DNA of 64,000 bases. It comes from Mariniphaga sp. (GTDB taxonomy: Bacteria; Bacteroidota; Bacteroidia; Bacteroidales; Prolixibacteraceae). The DNA is taken from the NCBI GenBank assembly GCA_025355585.1, contig JANXZJ010000193.1, forward strand, positions 1-64,000, read 5' to 3'. The notes under the pieces were generated by a model. It did not search any database. It was not told the DNA's origin and worked only from the letters and a program-made list of their open reading frames with translations. A program made the translations under genes and the position numbers. How positions within the stretch are numbered: the first letter of the stretch is position 1; each line of letters begins with the position of its first letter. Positions 4,398 to 34,593 of this stretch are shown one piece after another.

Positions 4398-5150
4398 ATG
4401 AAAAAAGCAATTTTAATTCTACTATTACTTATTCCGGCATTGTCCTTTGCCCAGGTTGATAAACAATCTTTCTACAACCCTAATGATTATCCTGCGACAA
4501 AATATTCAGTCAAAATTGACACCTTTTCACTTAAAACTTTCAAAGTTGAATTGGTTCAGGTAAAGCTAAAAGCGGAACAACCTTCAGAAAATACAGCTTA
4601 TTGCAGGATTTGGCTAACGGTGAAAAGTGGCAATACGGTTGTTGACAAGTTATTTTTCCCGGAATGTCATGCCACTGGGGGATGTTCAGGAATTTTTGCT
4701 GATGGACAACCCAGCAAAGAATATATAATTCTGTCAAAATTCGGGGACAATTCAGGTCAACTGATTATCATTGATAATACCGGTAAAATTCAGACTTATC
4801 CTGGTGGTGGCTACTCTGTTTCTGATGATTTAAAATACCTGTTCACCGTTCATGAGTCCAATACAATCGGAGTTACAGTTTTTGATCTTTCGAAAAATAA
4901 AATGATTTATTTAATTGAACAGTTAAAGAGTGAACTCGCAGATTTTTACCAGGCAGGTAACAAATATTTTGTGGTTGAAATAGATGATGACGCTACAAAC
5001 GAAAACCAGACAAATATTTTCACTTTTGATTTTGCTATAGGATATATGATCAAATCGACTGTCAACGACCAGTATGTCGAAAAGGCAACACGACTTAAAG
5101 CGTATAACCGGTATAACTTTGCACCTTGTAATTGCGGACAAAAAAATTAA
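4398..5150 (+). CDS. Exported protein of unknown function, 250 aa
   Basis: Not recognised. A Sec signal peptide is clear (MKKAILILLLLIPALSFA, cleavage before Q), so the product is periplasmic or outer-membrane-facing. The mature part of about 230 residues looks beta-rich, with alternating segments such as GQLIIIDNTGKIQTYPGGGYSVSDDLKYLF that recall a beta-propeller or repeat of 'statement of state' strands. The C-terminus has CNCGQ. It starts 35 bases after the broken DUF3784-like gene and may share its transcript. No catalytic motif is visible. Confidence 0.7.
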   Translation: MKKAILILLLLIPALSFAQVDKQSFYNPNDYPATKYSVKIDTFSLKTFKVELVQVKLKAEQPSENTAYCRIWLTVKSGNTVVDKLFFPECHATGGCSGIFADGQPSKEYIILSKFGDNSGQLIIIDNTGKIQTYPGGGYSVSDDLKYLFTVHESNTIGVTVFDLSKNKMIYLIEQLKSELADFYQAGNKYFVVEIDDDATNENQTNIFTFDFAIGYMIKSTVNDQYVEKATRLKAYNRYNFAPCNCGQKN

Positions 5151-5264
5151 ATGCGGAAACGAAAATACAACCCCCACATTCTGCCGGTTAAAAAGCGAAA
5201 GCAATTCAGGGGAAAGTAAATAAGTAATACAGGTTCAACAGGTCATTTAAAAATTGTGGACGAA

Positions 5265-5783
5265 ATGGTTATTCAATATATTTTAGAAACTGAAAGACTG
5301 AGACTTCGGGAATTTACGACAGAAGATGCACAATTCATCGTTGAACTTGTAAATAGCCCTGGCTGGCTGGAATTTATCGGCGACAGAAATATAAAGTCAG
5401 AAGAACAGGCAACGATTTATCTCGAAAATGGACCAATCAGAAGCTATCGCGAAAATGGATTTGGTCTATCATTGGTTGAAACAAAAGACAATGGTTTAAA
5501 GATTGGAATGTGCGGGATCATTAAACGTGATCATTTAGATCATCCTGACATTGGTTTTGCCTTTTTGCCTCAATTTACAGGGAAGGGATACGCATTTGAA
5601 ATGGCCAGTGCAACCTTGACTTTTGCTTTAAATACGTTAAAGTTGCCGGTGATGAGTGCCATTACGCTTGCTAACAACGAAAGATCAATTAAGCTTTTAG
5701 AGAAAATAGGGTTGAAATTTATTAAACCATTTCATTTTCCAAACGACGAAGAAGAACTAATGTTATTCAGTAACCAGGAATAA
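5265..5783 (+). CDS. GNAT-family N-acetyltransferase (RimJ/RimL-like)
   Basis: About 172 residues. The ATG at 5265 gives MVIQYILETERLRLREF, the normal N-terminus of this group; a GTG nine bases upstream is possible but less likely. Features in order: the LETERLRLREFTTEDA start, a central strand with IGMCGIIKRDHLDHPDIGFAFLPQFTGKGYAFE containing the acetyl-CoA loop (Q/R-x-x-G-x-G/A variant, about residues 105-112), and the C-terminal LANNERSIKLLEKIGLKF motif of RimJ/RimL enzymes. It transfers acetyl from acetyl-CoA to an amine; the substrate (protein N-terminus, antibiotic or small amine) is unknown. Confidence 0.88.
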   Translation: MVIQYILETERLRLREFTTEDAQFIVELVNSPGWLEFIGDRNIKSEEQATIYLENGPIRSYRENGFGLSLVETKDNGLKIGMCGIIKRDHLDHPDIGFAFLPQFTGKGYAFEMASATLTFALNTLKLPVMSAITLANNERSIKLLEKIGLKFIKPFHFPNDEEELMLFSNQE

Positions 5784-11212: not shown

Positions 11213-11846
11213 AACCGCTTTCAACAACGTGTTTATTTTATTTGTGAACACCATTCTCCACTTTGTTACAAACGAGTCTGGGAATAGACTTCACAAAGCT
11301 ATATTTAACACGGAGTTTCAAAGAGAAAGCGAGGAGCGATGCAAAGTTGGCAAGTTGACACTAAACCCTCTGCGGTACGCTGCGCTTTTTCCTTTGCGGT
11401 ACTTTGCGTTAATATTTTATAGCATTGTGACAGCCTCCGTCTCCCCCTCGTTTGCAGCGAGGGGTTTGTTGTTTAGAGTTTGTAACTCGTCCTCAAATTT
11501 AAGAGTTCAGAATCGGCATTTTTATCTTTATAAACGATTTGCAGAACAGTACTCCTTGCCACCAAATCTCCAAAGCACCAAATTTCACCAAAAGCAATTA
11601 TTTAATGTTTTTACATTGGTGGACTTTGGTGTTTTTGTGTATGGATGGCATTTTTTGATTTTCAGACTTTCCAGATTTGATTCGAATTTATCTTATATAC
11701 AACAAGTCTGCCTTTTTTGAGTTTGCAACTTGCGGTCCAAATTCCAAATAATTCCAAAAGTTGAAGTTCAACAAGAATATTGCGCATCGGTAAAGTCTTA
11801 AACAGGGCAAAATTTTAGTAAATTGAAAGATAAAAACTTCAACAAA
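11213..11846. other. Intergenic region with hairpins and low-complexity repeats
   Basis: No supported gene; a 163-codon open frame here is composed of repeat-like sequence. A perfect hairpin is present: CCCCTCG (11444-11450) / CGAGGGG (11458-11464), 7-base loop, then TTTGTTGTTT. Degenerate echoing motifs occur: CCTCTGCGGTACGCTGCG, then CTTTGCGGTACTTTGCG around 11370-11410. Forms of CCAAAG and CACCAA around 11570-11600 meet their inverse near 11621-11636. The region has the look of decayed intergenic repeats next to the module that follows. Confidence 0.5.
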
Positions 11847-11862
11847 CCCGGTAAACACTGGT
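11847..11862 (+). promoter_or_regulatory. Shared 16-base element, copy 1
   Basis: CCCGGTAAACACTGGT lies 142 bases before the start codon of the 248-residue protein. The identical 16 bases occur at 33353-33368, 148 bases before the paralogous gene. The core CCGGT-AAAC-ACTGG is an imperfect inverted repeat that could be an operator, or a small RNA stem with one G-U pair. In this copy it lies upstream of a promoter-like sequence, which favours a DNA site or a module end. Confidence 0.7.
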
Positions 11863-11895
11863 GTTGAATCGATATGAGAAATATATTCAGAAATA

Positions 11896-11929
11896 TTTGA
11901 GATTTAAATTTTTATTTTTTGTATATTTA
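11896..11929 (+). promoter_or_regulatory. Possible promoter of the module protein gene, copy 1
   Basis: TTTG (11896-11899) and TATATTTA (11922-11929) are 22 bases apart, close to the Bacteroidota -33/-7 pattern except for the last base. The start codon lies about 75 bases downstream. Confidence 0.35.
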
Positions 11930-12003
11930 GCTATTCCCAATAGATGTTTTTCGCACATAAATGTTTTGGTTTTTATTGTTAATTAAAAACGAATAATTAA
12001 ATT

Positions 12004-12750
12004 ATGCCAAAAAATTTAGCATCAGGACCGGGCACAAATGTGACCAACCTAAAAACTATGATTGCTGCTATTTTGGGTTATGGAGATCGTTACAACCCAA
12101 TCAATGCACTCATTTCACTGATGGCTTTACAAGCCCTTTATCTTCTTGGCCTTAGCGCCGTAAATTCGGTAGATGCCGTACAACCTGCAAATACAAATGC
12201 GAAAAACGCACGTACCGATGCTTTCGATTTATTAGACAAGCTCACAACCCGCATTGGAAATGCTTTTAAGTCAATTGTAGCCAATGAACCGGCCCGCGAA
12301 CATGTCCGTTCAATGATTCTTGTGATTAAACGTGGCAGGGTTAATCTTAAAAAAGAACAGCCACCTGTTACTGATCCAACTGCCGAACCGACAAATGGCA
12401 AAGAAAATGCTTCTCATAAATCGGGATATGACAAGCAACTTGAAAATTTCAACAAGTTGATTTATTACTTAGCTAGCTTTCCAGCCTACGTTCCAAATGA
12501 AGCTGATTTAACTGTTGAAAGTCTGACTGCCTTTTACAATGAACTGAATGCAAAAAATCAGCTTGTTATCGATACCCAGACAGAACTCGATAAAGCACGC
12601 ATCATTCGTAAAAATGTGCTTGATCATCCTGAATCCGGTTTGGTTGTTTTGGCGAAGGCTTCCAAAAACTATGTATCGTCTGTTTATGGTGCCAGAAGTC
12701 TTGAATATAGGCAGTTAACGAAGCTGAGATTTAAAACTTATAAAAGTTAA
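12004..12750 (+). CDS. Repeat-array-associated helical protein, copy 1 (unknown family)
   Basis: 248 residues with no signal peptide and no recognised domain. Predicted mostly alpha-helical: an N-terminal helical half (about 1-110), a charged, Pro/Lys-rich linker (about 112-140), and a C-terminal helical half. It is a clear paralogue of the gene at 33516. Shared positions include N-V-x-N (12-15), the A-R-x-x-A-F segment about 68-73, KL-x-TRI-x-N about 79-87, LENF-x-KLI about 145-153, Y-x-PNE about 161-166, L-x-KAR, GLV-x-LA and GA-x-S-x-EY-x-Q-x-x-KL at the C-terminus. It sits in the same arrangement as its paralogue: 16-base element, gene, hairpin terminator, 21-bp repeat array. The conserved layout implies the protein acts on or with the repeats, but no biochemical role can be assigned. 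Confidence 0.85.
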   Translation: MPKNLASGPGTNVTNLKTMIAAILGYGDRYNPINALISLMALQALYLLGLSAVNSVDAVQPANTNAKNARTDAFDLLDKLTTRIGNAFKSIVANEPAREHVRSMILVIKRGRVNLKKEQPPVTDPTAEPTNGKENASHKSGYDKQLENFNKLIYYLASFPAYVPNEADLTVESLTAFYNELNAKNQLVIDTQTELDKARIIRKNVLDHPESGLVVLAKASKNYVSSVYGARSLEYRQLTKLRFKTYKS

Positions 12751-12804
12751 TCGTAATCGGCCATAATCGATGGCCTGCAGAAAACATCTTTTTAGGAACA
12801 TATT

Positions 12805-12840
12805 TACTGCGTTTCCTCAATGGCAAACGCAGTATTTATT
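12805..12840 (+). terminator. Hairpin terminator between module gene and repeat array, copy 1
   Basis: A perfect 10-bp stem, TACTGCGTTT (12805-12814) with AAACGCAGTA (12825-12834), has a 10-base loop and is followed by TTTATTTT. The stem core ACTGCG/CGCAGT is shared with the hairpin at 34318. A smaller perfect hairpin, GGCCAT (12759-12764) / ATGGCC (12770-12775), lies just after the stop codon. Confidence 0.85.
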
Positions 12841-12920
12841 TTAGATGAGTTCATTCCTAAAAAATGGATGTATATTCCAATAAAAAAGCTTCACATTTTT
12901 GAAATGTCAACTTCAACTAT

Positions 12921-13256
12921 GCACAAGTCATTGGACATTTTGCACAAGTCATTGGATATTTTGCGGAAGGCACTGGACATTTTGCACAAGGCATTGGATA
13001 TTTTGCGGAAGGCACTGGACGTTTTGCGGAAGGCACTGGATATTTTGCGGAAGGCACTGGACATTTTGCACAAGTCATTGGATATTTTGCGGAAGGCACT
13101 GGACATTTTGCGGAAGACAACTTCAACTATGCACAAGTCACTTAATATTTTGCGGAAGACATTGGCGATTTTGCGGAAGACAACTTCAACTATGCACAAG
13201 CCGTTGCGCATTTAGCGGAAGGCAACTTCAACTATGAAGAAGTCGTGTCACATTAT
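12921..13256. repeat. 21-bp tandem repeat array 1, 16 units
   Basis: Sixteen head-to-tail units of exactly 21 bp. Two unit classes differ at a few fixed places. One begins GCACAAGTCATT, the other GCGGAAGGCACT; both continue GGACATTTT or GGATATTTT. Unit 4 mixes the classes (GCACAAGGCATT). Units 10, 13 and 15 carry the alternative tail CAACTTCAACTAT, which also stands immediately before unit 1. The last units are diverged. There are no spacers, so this is not CRISPR. In one frame the units encode the heptad H/R-K-S/A-L-D-I-L, in which half the variable positions are silent. The array starts 87 bases after the terminator stem. Confidence 0.95.
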
Positions 13257-13707
13257 CAGGAAAATTGTAATATCTATGTTTTTGACATAATACGATTTGA
13301 TGGTATTAACTATGAAAGAATTCAAATGGATGAAAAAAATCCCTGAAGGGCTTTTCGGGGCGCTTCAGGGAGGTCAATTATTCAAACTTTCAATTTGTTT
13401 CTTATCAAGCCGCTTGAAGGGTTTACAACCGCTTCAAGGGCACTCCTTTTCACTTTTTTCTCTTTGACTCGTCCTGATTTTTCTTTACAGATTTTGTGTT
13501 GATACTGTCTTACCTTTTATTTGCGGCGCATATGTTGTTTTCATTTCATCAAACATTTGTAGTTGCGCCTTTTTTTTATCCTGCTTCTTTATCCCGGGGA
13601 TGCGTTCGCTTTGGTCACTTACCCCAGGCTACCAATATTTCACCAGGCTGTGGTGATAACTTTTTCTCATCTTCGCCCTTTCTTTCCCTCTCTTTTTTCT
13701 CTCCCTC
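13257..13707. other. Spacer after repeat array 1 with two similar hairpins
   Basis: No supported gene. Hairpin one is CCCTGAAG (13341-13348) / CTTCAGGG (13363-13370). Hairpin two is CTTGAAG (13413-13419) / CTTCAAG (13432-13438). Both are built on related TGAAGGG/CTTCA words. The last 60 bases before the end of buk are almost pure pyrimidine on the plus strand (about 13664-13710). Open frames here are products of this skewed composition. Confidence 0.55.
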
Positions 13708-33352: not shown

Positions 33353-33368
33353 CCCGGTAAACACTGGT
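33353..33368 (+). promoter_or_regulatory. Shared 16-base element, copy 2
   Basis: CCCGGTAAACACTGGT is identical to 11847-11862 and lies 148 bases before the start codon of the paralogous gene. The flanking bases differ apart from a nearby TGAA. No good -33/-7 pair was found between it and the gene; TAATTTTA at 33457-33464 is the best -7 candidate. Confidence 0.7.
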
Positions 33369-33515: not shown

Positions 33516-34259
33516 ATGGCAAGTCGTTCAGAAATGGGCCATGCAAAAAATGTGGCCAACTTTAATGTTTTAATTGCTTTCATTCTGAGTTATCTTGATG
33601 TTTTCAAACCTTCGAGAGCCGCTATTGAGTATGCATCGCTTCAGGTTGTTGCAGAAAATGCAAAAAATTCAATGGAAAATGTAAATGATGCCTCTTCAGC
33701 AAACAATGGTGCCAAAGCAGCGCGTGTAGTGGCCTTTAGGCCATTTAGTAAGCTGATCACCAGGATAATCAATTCCGTCCGATCGACAGATACCTCAAAG
33801 GAAGTCGATAACCAGGTTCGTACATTGGTACGAAAACTTCGCGGTACAAGGGCTACTCCAAAGAAATCGGAAGAAGAAAAGAAAGTACTTGCTGCCGCAG
33901 GTACCGAAGTGGTTGAAATATCAGCATCGCAAATGGGTTTCGATGATCGCCTGGAAAATTTCGATAAGCTGATCAGACTGTTAGCTGGTATTTCTCTTTA
34001 TGCACCGAACGAAACAGAATTAAAACTCTCGGAACTCTCCGCCTACAACGATCAGTTAAACATGCTGAATAAAGAGGTTGTTCGAACCGAATTAAGCTTG
34101 GGAAAGGCCCGGAATTTAAGACAGGAAGTACTCTATAAGGATAAGACAGGGCTTGTCGATCTGGCATTAGACACCAAAAGTTATATTCGGTCGCTGTTCG
34201 GCGCAACAAGCAAGGAATACAAACAAATATCAAAATTAAAATTCATTATTGTAAAGTAA
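33516..34259 (+). CDS. Repeat-array-associated helical protein, copy 2 (unknown family)
   Basis: 247 residues, paralogue of the protein at 12004, with no signal peptide and no recognised domain. Helical throughout by composition. A strongly basic stretch sits in the middle (VRTLVRKLRGTRATPKK, about 106-122), followed by a conserved DDRLENFDKLIRLLA core (about 145-160), Y-A-P-N-E, SLGKARNLR, and a C-terminal SLFGATSKEYKQISKLKF. The basic patch would suit nucleic-acid contact, but that is inference. It lies in the divergent gap between susC and the GH20 gene, unrelated in function to both. It is followed by the shared-core hairpin and an array of 21-bp repeats. Confidence 0.85.
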   Translation: MASRSEMGHAKNVANFNVLIAFILSYLDVFKPSRAAIEYASLQVVAENAKNSMENVNDASSANNGAKAARVVAFRPFSKLITRIINSVRSTDTSKEVDNQVRTLVRKLRGTRATPKKSEEEKKVLAAAGTEVVEISASQMGFDDRLENFDKLIRLLAGISLYAPNETELKLSELSAYNDQLNMLNKEVVRTELSLGKARNLRQEVLYKDKTGLVDLALDTKSYIRSLFGATSKEYKQISKLKFIIVK

Positions 34260-34317: not shown

Positions 34318-34357
34318 AACTGCGGTTATCTTTTTGATAATCGCAGTTTTATTTTTT
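34318..34357 (+). terminator. Hairpin terminator between module gene and repeat array, copy 2
   Basis: A 13-bp stem, AACTGCGGTTATC (34318-34330) with GATAATCGCAGTT (34336-34348), has one G-U pair and the loop TTTTT; TTATTTTTT follows. It shares the ACTGCG/CGCAGT core and the position (59 bases after the stop) with the hairpin at 12805. Confidence 0.9.
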
Positions 34358-34383
34358 CCCCCATTGATTTTGAGTCGATGTCC

Positions 34384-34593
34384 TGCACTTTGTGTTTTGC
34401 TTTCTGCACTTTGTGTTTTTGCTCCTGCACTTTGTGTTTTTGCTCCTGCACTTTGTTTTTTTGCTCCTGCACTTTGTTTTTTTGCTCCTGCACTTTGTTT
34501 TTTTGCTCCTGCACTTTGTTTTTTTGCTCTTGCACTTTGTTTTTTTGCTCCTGCACTTTGTTTTTTTGCTTCTGCAACTTATTATTTAAGAAC
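34384..34593. repeat. 21-bp tandem repeat array 2, about 10 units
   Basis: Nine well-preserved units of 21 bp and one decayed unit. Each unit begins TGCACTTTGT; units 2-9 continue with a T-rich block and end GCTCC, GCTCT or GCTTC. Units 2 and 3 have GTGTTTTTGC; units 4-9 have GTTTTTTTGC, so identical units are adjacent as expected from recent tandem duplication. On the minus strand one frame encodes the heptad K-V-Q-E-Q-K-N. There are no spacers. The array starts 36 bases after the terminator stem. Confidence 0.95.

Follow-up and report, generated by a model that had tools for sequence, protein, structure and literature searches.

The 64,000-nt stretch of Mariniphaga sp. DNA that we analysed (hereafter the window) contains two modules with the same order of parts, in which a 16-base element is followed by a protein gene, a hairpin and a tandem array with a period of 21 bp (Table 1). 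Both modules lie where a sequence-only reading of this DNA had placed them, and most of their described details hold. The two proteins are homologous, with 36% identity over 236 aa (E = 2e-46), the hairpins start at the distances past the stop codon that had been given and both contain ACTGCG/CGCAGT, and TRF recovers the 21-bp period of both arrays and, at score 50, no further period-21 array in the window. The spacing between element and start codon is also present in both modules, but our recount gives 141 nt for copy 1 and 147 nt for copy 2 where 142 and 148 had been reported. A third copy of the gene is found elsewhere in the window's own genome (G000), at C81:5109-5849, with a 42/21-bp array 119–316 nt past its stop codon; the 16-base element is absent from the 300 nt 5′ of this copy. 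At the corresponding locus of the close relative G008, the flanking kinase is 91% identical at the protein level, and in place of the copy-1 segment there are about 200 bp of unrelated sequence.

Table 1. Features of the two modules, with positions numbered from the first nucleotide of the window.
Feature	Positions	Strand	Remarks
Segment without same-place counterpart in G008	11540..13314	+	insertion here or loss there
16-base element, copy 1	11847..11862	+	identical to copy 2; confined to the window's two copies
Copy 1 protein	12004..12750	+	248 aa, pI 9.5, internally duplicated, helical
Hairpin, copy 1	12806..12833	+	T-rich 3′ side, terminator-like; starts 55 nt past stop
Array 1	12920..13224	+	period 21, super-periods 42/63
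16-base element, copy 2	33353..33368	+	identical to copy 1
Copy 2 protein	33516..34259	+	247 aa, pI 9.6
Hairpin, copy 2	34318..34348	+	terminator-like; starts 59 nt past stop
Array 2	34381..34576	+	period 21, 9.3 copies, 94% matches

The two proteins belong to an unnamed family that is all-helical, internally duplicated and basic. Pfam, PHROGs and NCBIfam gave no meaningful match for the window proteins, and 38 members of the family gave only scattered weak matches in Pfam and PADLOC. The AlphaFold model (mean pLDDT 86.8, pTM 0.74) is helical throughout, with predicted helices at residues 9–29, 39–91 and 95–110 and, beyond a low-confidence linker at 113–139, at 140–157, 171–207 and 213–228, and the N- and C-terminal halves are homologous to one another (hhalign 96%, E = 1.3e-9). 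The pI has a median of 9.4 and exceeds 8.5 in 92% of the 38 members. Invariant residues are N12, P32, R70, P164, L174, R202, G212 and K221, with E166 as the only nearly invariant acidic residue, and they include neither an acidic nor an HUH triad. A PDB sequence search and Foldseek searches of the pdb and viral collections returned no match at E ≤ 0.001, and in the structure searches no DNA-binding fold stood out and no clear relative could be named. Within Bacteroidota, where we searched, the family was found in 16 of 61 near relatives, with up to 10 matches per genome (one of these cut by a contig end), in 39 of 393 genomes from the order and in 10 of 395 drawn across the phylum; all three counts include G000. 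Viral contigs searched with the copy 1 protein (P0001) and plasmids and phages searched by tblastn with copy 2 (P0002) held no relative. A profile search identified one distant relative, of 30% identity, on a 26.7-kb contig from a viral collection (L253, match 5001-5711), and here too a period-21 array lies 3′ of the gene (0.62, 0.61 and 0.58 at lags 21, 42 and 63).

This arrangement is general to the family. We examined 118 near-full-length homologues, all distinct and covering 180 or more model positions. In 93 of them the 900 nt past the stop codon contain a period-21 array, against 13 when the 5′ side is tested in the same way; for other ORFs of 200 aa or more the test is positive in 20 of 360, or in 45 of 650 once the array-rich genome G620 is added. 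In the comparison that the sequence-only reading had proposed, arrays thus follow homologues more often than they follow other genes, and the tie between gene and array is real: the alternative that it had named, a coincidence of local duplication with homologues elsewhere mostly lacking an array, is ruled out by the 93 homologues with a 3′ array. A lag test over 450 nt, applied to the 113 homologues with at least 300 nt of downstream sequence, gave 21, 42 or 63 as the top downstream lag for 89 genes (87 under a strict criterion), with mean identities of 0.43, 0.44 and 0.41 at these lags against a median of 0.27. The same top lags were seen in 15 of 114 stretches on the upstream side and, as a control, past 58 of 386 other ORFs (115 of 678 with G620), a control rate of 15% without and 17% with G620 that is not zero because lags 21, 42 and 63 are raised in coding DNA too. 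Among loci fetched after the prediction had been made, 22 of 35 passed. The homologues lacking an array (25 of 118 in the 900-nt test; 24 of 113 fail the 450-nt test) include the well conserved proteins L009, L014 and L024. Many of the genomes are fragmented drafts, and a contig end truncates any array that it meets. In L025 and L071 the array lies more than 450 nt away, and in L057 (locus L129) there is one 5′ of the gene. In L009, another ORF begins within 300 nt past the stop codon, and its start presumably resembles an AbiH-type abortive-infection protein.

The 16-base element, which had been put forward as part of the layout, fails the test that the array passes. It accompanies 2 of the 118 homologues, and its core CCGGTAA 5 of them (0.48 expected), so we reject it as part of the general layout; its seven exact matches in viral contigs are, by our own estimate, not above chance for a 16-mer in a collection as large as this. 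The terminator-like hairpin is common, though not universal, between stop codon and array, being present in 50 of 93 modules as compared with 2 of 93 shuffled spacers. Separately, loci L016, L046, L047, L049 and L050 share an upstream motif rich in TATCCG/CCGGATATAA, tandemly repeated with a period of 10–20 in L016, which may be an operator of this subgroup.

Across 41 loci the arrays keep their phase, with mean identities of 0.42 (lag 21), 0.46 (lag 42) and 0.42 (lag 63) over a background of about 0.265, and the arrays of L001-L051 additionally show a weak 7-nt sub-period (lags 7, 14, 28, 35, 49 and 56). A test of 33 arrays gave no codon-position signal (Fisher p = 0.98; a single array, L044, has p = 0.035). 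RNA-fold scores for 30 arrays, taking every third array, also show no signal (z = −0.09 sense and −0.28 antisense), and a search of the window against Rfam returned nothing at the gathering score; these last two results lead us to discard structured RNA as an account of the arrays. Conserved array columns cluster (lag-1 z = 5.3 over 35 arrays), as they do in binding-site cores; we also searched the arrays for a bipartite conserved core with its parts one turn apart, and saw none. When array units are compared on the same strand, their similarity follows protein identity (Mantel r = 0.46, p = 0.001), the opposite strand giving r = 0.06 (p = 0.06), in 60 arrays that passed a length filter after L023, L030, L051, L064, L074, L075 and L087 had been dropped as duplicates or fragments. 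Units are recognisably related above 50% protein identity and hardly so below it. The earlier description of the unit sequences as unrelated is therefore right for distant pairs but does not extend to closely related proteins, whose units are related. Because it rests on pairs above 50% identity, the co-variation of protein and array seen in these comparisons would also be predicted by joint descent of the module. Unit number also varies between close relatives, from about 9 in L003 to 18 in L043. In blastn comparisons of 12 locus pairs, homology in L003/L043 and L021/L029 starts 91–135 nt 5′ of the ATG and ends near the array end, in others, such as L001/L004 and L002/L003, it stops at or soon past the stop codon, in L006/L007 and L028/L030 it runs past the array, and in further pairs it reaches a contig end or covers a fragment, so that the ends of the module are not sharply defined. 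A repeat of another kind lies at L149:3824-4222 (G000:C10), where dense 15/48-bp repeats rich in TGTTGC look like a low-complexity coding repeat.

Arrays also occur away from any gene of the family. Array 1 has a gene-less relative of 76–82% identity at G000:C122:26888-27399, the array of the third copy has one at C6 of the same genome, and array 2 has no relative elsewhere in the G000 assembly, which is 84% complete. No gene remnant was found in the 14–15 kb surrounding the C122 and C6 arrays, and the gene-less arrays sit in mixed intergenic settings. In a search of 61 genomes, only G000 has the C122 unit family, save for a match of 28 nt in G058, whereas G000 and G017 both have the C6 unit family and G014 gives a weak match to it; clear matches to the two families are thus confined to the genomes in which the cognate gene is present (G000 and G017). 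G017 contains a module that shares 89% DNA identity with L003, as well as a gene-less stretch of about three units at C98. In G014, a gene-less array at C81 is 69% identical to the array of that genome's own module L007 and 75% identical to those of L005 and L006, with no family match in the 1.8 kb examined. Gene-less arrays were accordingly seen in three genomes, each of which also carries a module of the same unit family. The C122 array can be read as a 186-aa frame that runs from an ATG to a stop codon just past the array (L163:7857-8417), which is probably a by-product of the period of 21, although it may encode a peptide.

A mirror image of this layout is found in DUF6261 (PF19775), an uncharacterised Bacteroidota family of about 245 aa that is predicted to be all-helical. 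Three of seven small array-side ORFs of G620, chosen by eye, match this family above the cut-off, whereas two array-side ORFs of G000 do not, and G000 has 10 DUF6261 genes. Our set comprised 21 genes, from 18 fetched loci and the three G620 matches, of which 18 entered the lag test; for L167, L174 and L176 no fitting ATG-started ORF had been picked, and these three were omitted. Upstream of 16 of the 18 genes the highest-scoring lag is 41 or 42 (13 of 15 once the three genes that arrays had led us to are set aside), and downstream this is so for none. TRF detects a 41–42-bp array in 11 of the 18 fetched loci, always 5′ of the gene; of the three omitted loci, L176 carries an array of 41 bp 5′ of the gene, and TRF finds none in L167 and L174. 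DUF6261 resembles the window family in its length, in its multiple copies, in the tandem array beside the gene and in a short-long-short helix order that occurs twice (predicted helices 13–30, 38–59 + 62–88 and 94–110, then 118–135, 146–169 + 171–203 and 206–229), a topology that we compared by helix order without superposition. It differs in that its arrays have a period of 41–42 bp and lie 5′, rather than 21 bp and 3′, and in that most of its members are not basic (median pI 6.1; 14 of 18 at 8.5 or less). Comparison of the two family profiles gave E = 7e-4 and a probability of 26% over 100 columns, and PF19775 was matched neither by the window proteins (E up to 1) nor among the 25 families listed, of 31 in all, for the 38 members. 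In a comparison with S23/Avd four-helix-bundle proteins, the DUF6261 model aligns with 2rld (Z 8.7, rmsd 3.2, 99 aligned) and with the DGR protein Avd, 8ub7 (Z 7.7, rmsd 3.8, 98 aligned), values that helical bundles reach through their common arrangement. From the shared helix order and the weak profile match, DUF6261 is probably a distant relative of the window family with a mirrored layout. The sequence-only reading knew of no named system built in this way, which agrees with the searches that we made, except that DUF6261, named though uncharacterised, has the mirror-image layout. In the excerpts covered by a non-exhaustive literature search, nothing was found on the window family or its arrays, and DUF6261 was mentioned in one paper, apparently on an unrelated subject.

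We propose that each protein recognises its own helically phased array, both in cis and in trans, a reading to which we assign a probability of about 0.5. The module would then pair an array with the gene of the small, basic, helical protein that recognises it. A 21-bp unit corresponds to two turns of B-DNA, so that successive units would face the same way and copies of the protein could sit in a row along the same side of the helix, where several of them may form a nucleoprotein assembly. Paralogues would have diverged along with their arrays into largely separate protein-array pairs, the gene-less arrays would be further sites of the same protein, and DUF6261 may work likewise, with 41–42-bp units (four turns) placed 5′ of the gene. 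Whereas the earlier suggestion left it open whether the protein or its locus generates, maintains or uses the arrays, use fits best with the co-variation, the arrays in trans and the basic protein. Concerning purpose, we infer a role in local chromosome organisation or tethering, in a centromere- or iteron-like manner, and favour this over control of the module's own gene, given that the arrays of this family are on the 3′ side and about half of them stand behind a terminator-like hairpin. In iteron and partition systems (parS/parC with ParB/ParR), a small protein recognises a helix-phased tandem array and is often encoded beside it. The window family shares the small protein beside a helix-phased tandem array, with recognition as the inferred part of the comparison, and differs in being chromosomal in the genomes searched and in having up to 10 paralogues, of which distant ones have different units; the window proteins do not match Rep, ParB or ParR in Pfam, PHROGs or NCBIfam (E up to 1). 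A wider version of the proposal, about which we are doubtful, is that DUF6261 and the duplicated family together form a dispersed addressing system, in which roughly a dozen pairs per genome would have private arrays, phased at two or four helical turns, that each protein recognises in cis and in trans and whose copies it would help to seed.

If the module were instead a selfish or homing pair that spreads as a unit, its protein, alone or with a host enzyme, would seed or expand the arrays in trans, much as has been proposed for RAYT proteins and REP sequences. REP/RAYT loci have a gene flanked by its own repeat and further gene-less copies in the genome, and the window family is similar in having a gene beside its repeat and gene-less copies elsewhere; it departs from them in its long tandem arrays, where REPs are short palindromes, and in that the window proteins have no transposase match in Pfam, PHROGs or NCBIfam. 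Spread as a unit would account for the number of matches per genome, the presence of gene-less arrays alongside a cognate gene, the differing unit numbers of close relatives, the copy-1 segment that G008 lacks at the same locus, and the related modules in different flanks, of which two of the 12 compared pairs have homology that begins shortly 5′ of the ATG and ends near the array end. The other pairs do not show such borders, since their homology stops before the array, passes it, meets a contig end or represents a fragment, no target-site duplication was identified, the invariant residues hold no triad of the two kinds mentioned above, and the plasmids and phages searched with copy 2 are free of the family. 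We regard this reading as unlikely. A regulatory role, with the arrays serving as tandem operators for their own gene or for neighbours, would suit the 5′ arrays of DUF6261, but the arrays of the window family are on the 3′ side and the gene-less ones occur in mixed intergenic settings, which makes it a rather improbable explanation. We give still less credence to passive minisatellites or arrays that encode heptad-repeat peptides. Arrays near 21/42 bp abound in G620, and a period of 21, being divisible by 3, leaves several reading frames open in many arrays, while the C122 array reads as a 186-aa frame; against this stand the enrichment on one side of one gene family, the fixed 21-bp phase, the missing codon-position signal and the 41-bp DUF6261 arrays, which cannot keep frame. 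On the last two grounds we reject coding arrays.

The arrays could also act at the RNA level. Their transcript, either processed to short RNAs or serving as a repeat RNA, would then be bound by the basic protein, in a manner similar to CRISPR or to TIGR-Tas, which has a Nop-domain protein and arrays that are transcribed and processed to 36-nt RNAs. TIGR loci are described as consisting of one protein gene and an adjacent array, up- or downstream of it, in which 8–12-nt repeats that differ between loci alternate with 9-nt spacers (PMC12045711). The window family likewise pairs one protein gene with an adjacent array that varies by locus, and lengths of 21 and 42 nt would fit the arithmetic of that design. 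Conserved-plus-variable blocks (p < 0.05) are present in 14 of 85 arrays, and in 3 of the 85 a 9-nt block is about random in its variability. Neither window array (L001, L002) belongs to these three, and TIGR-like hypervariable 9-nt spacers or comparable blocks are absent from the other 82; the window units are alike over all 21 nt and, unlike CRISPR repeats, contiguous and without spacers. Nop families were matched neither by the window proteins (E up to 1) nor among the 25 Pfam families listed, of 31 in all, for the 38 members, the structure-search lists show no Nop either, although such a domain may have escaped them, and none of the ten window genes scanned around the modules belongs to a cas family. 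Given also the 50 of 93 arrays placed behind a terminator-like hairpin and the lack of a fold signal, we consider an RNA-level function quite unlikely.

Our results suggest a protein-plus-array system on bacterial chromosomes that is undescribed as far as our literature search shows, and they give an unnamed family and an orphan Pfam family a common, testable genetic partner. Were the proposed binding true, Bacteroidota would possess naturally diversified small proteins with separate tandem DNA targets, which would be informative on the co-evolution of protein-DNA specificity and useful as DNA tags. It might also be relevant to chromosome organisation in Bacteroidota, to our knowledge little studied, and would explain a class of intergenic minisatellites.

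Arrays of similar period were also observed beside other genes. G620 is a single contig of 4.3 Mb, and the 400 kb that we sampled from it (L096-L115) contain 26 merged arrays with periods near 21/42/63 and some of 20/22/41/43, most of them beside ORFs that, judged by eye, are unlike the window family or DUF6261. Two such ORFs, of 161 and 163 aa with lysine-rich ends (L103:19010-19492 and L110:13724-14212), adjoin arrays of period 21–22 and match no Pfam family above the cut-off. The same holds in Pfam for two ORFs of G000, of 239 aa (L137:3713-4432, array 4671-4832) and 228 aa (L147:51-737, array 1196-1542), which have their array 5′ of the gene and are possibly members of further array-linked families.
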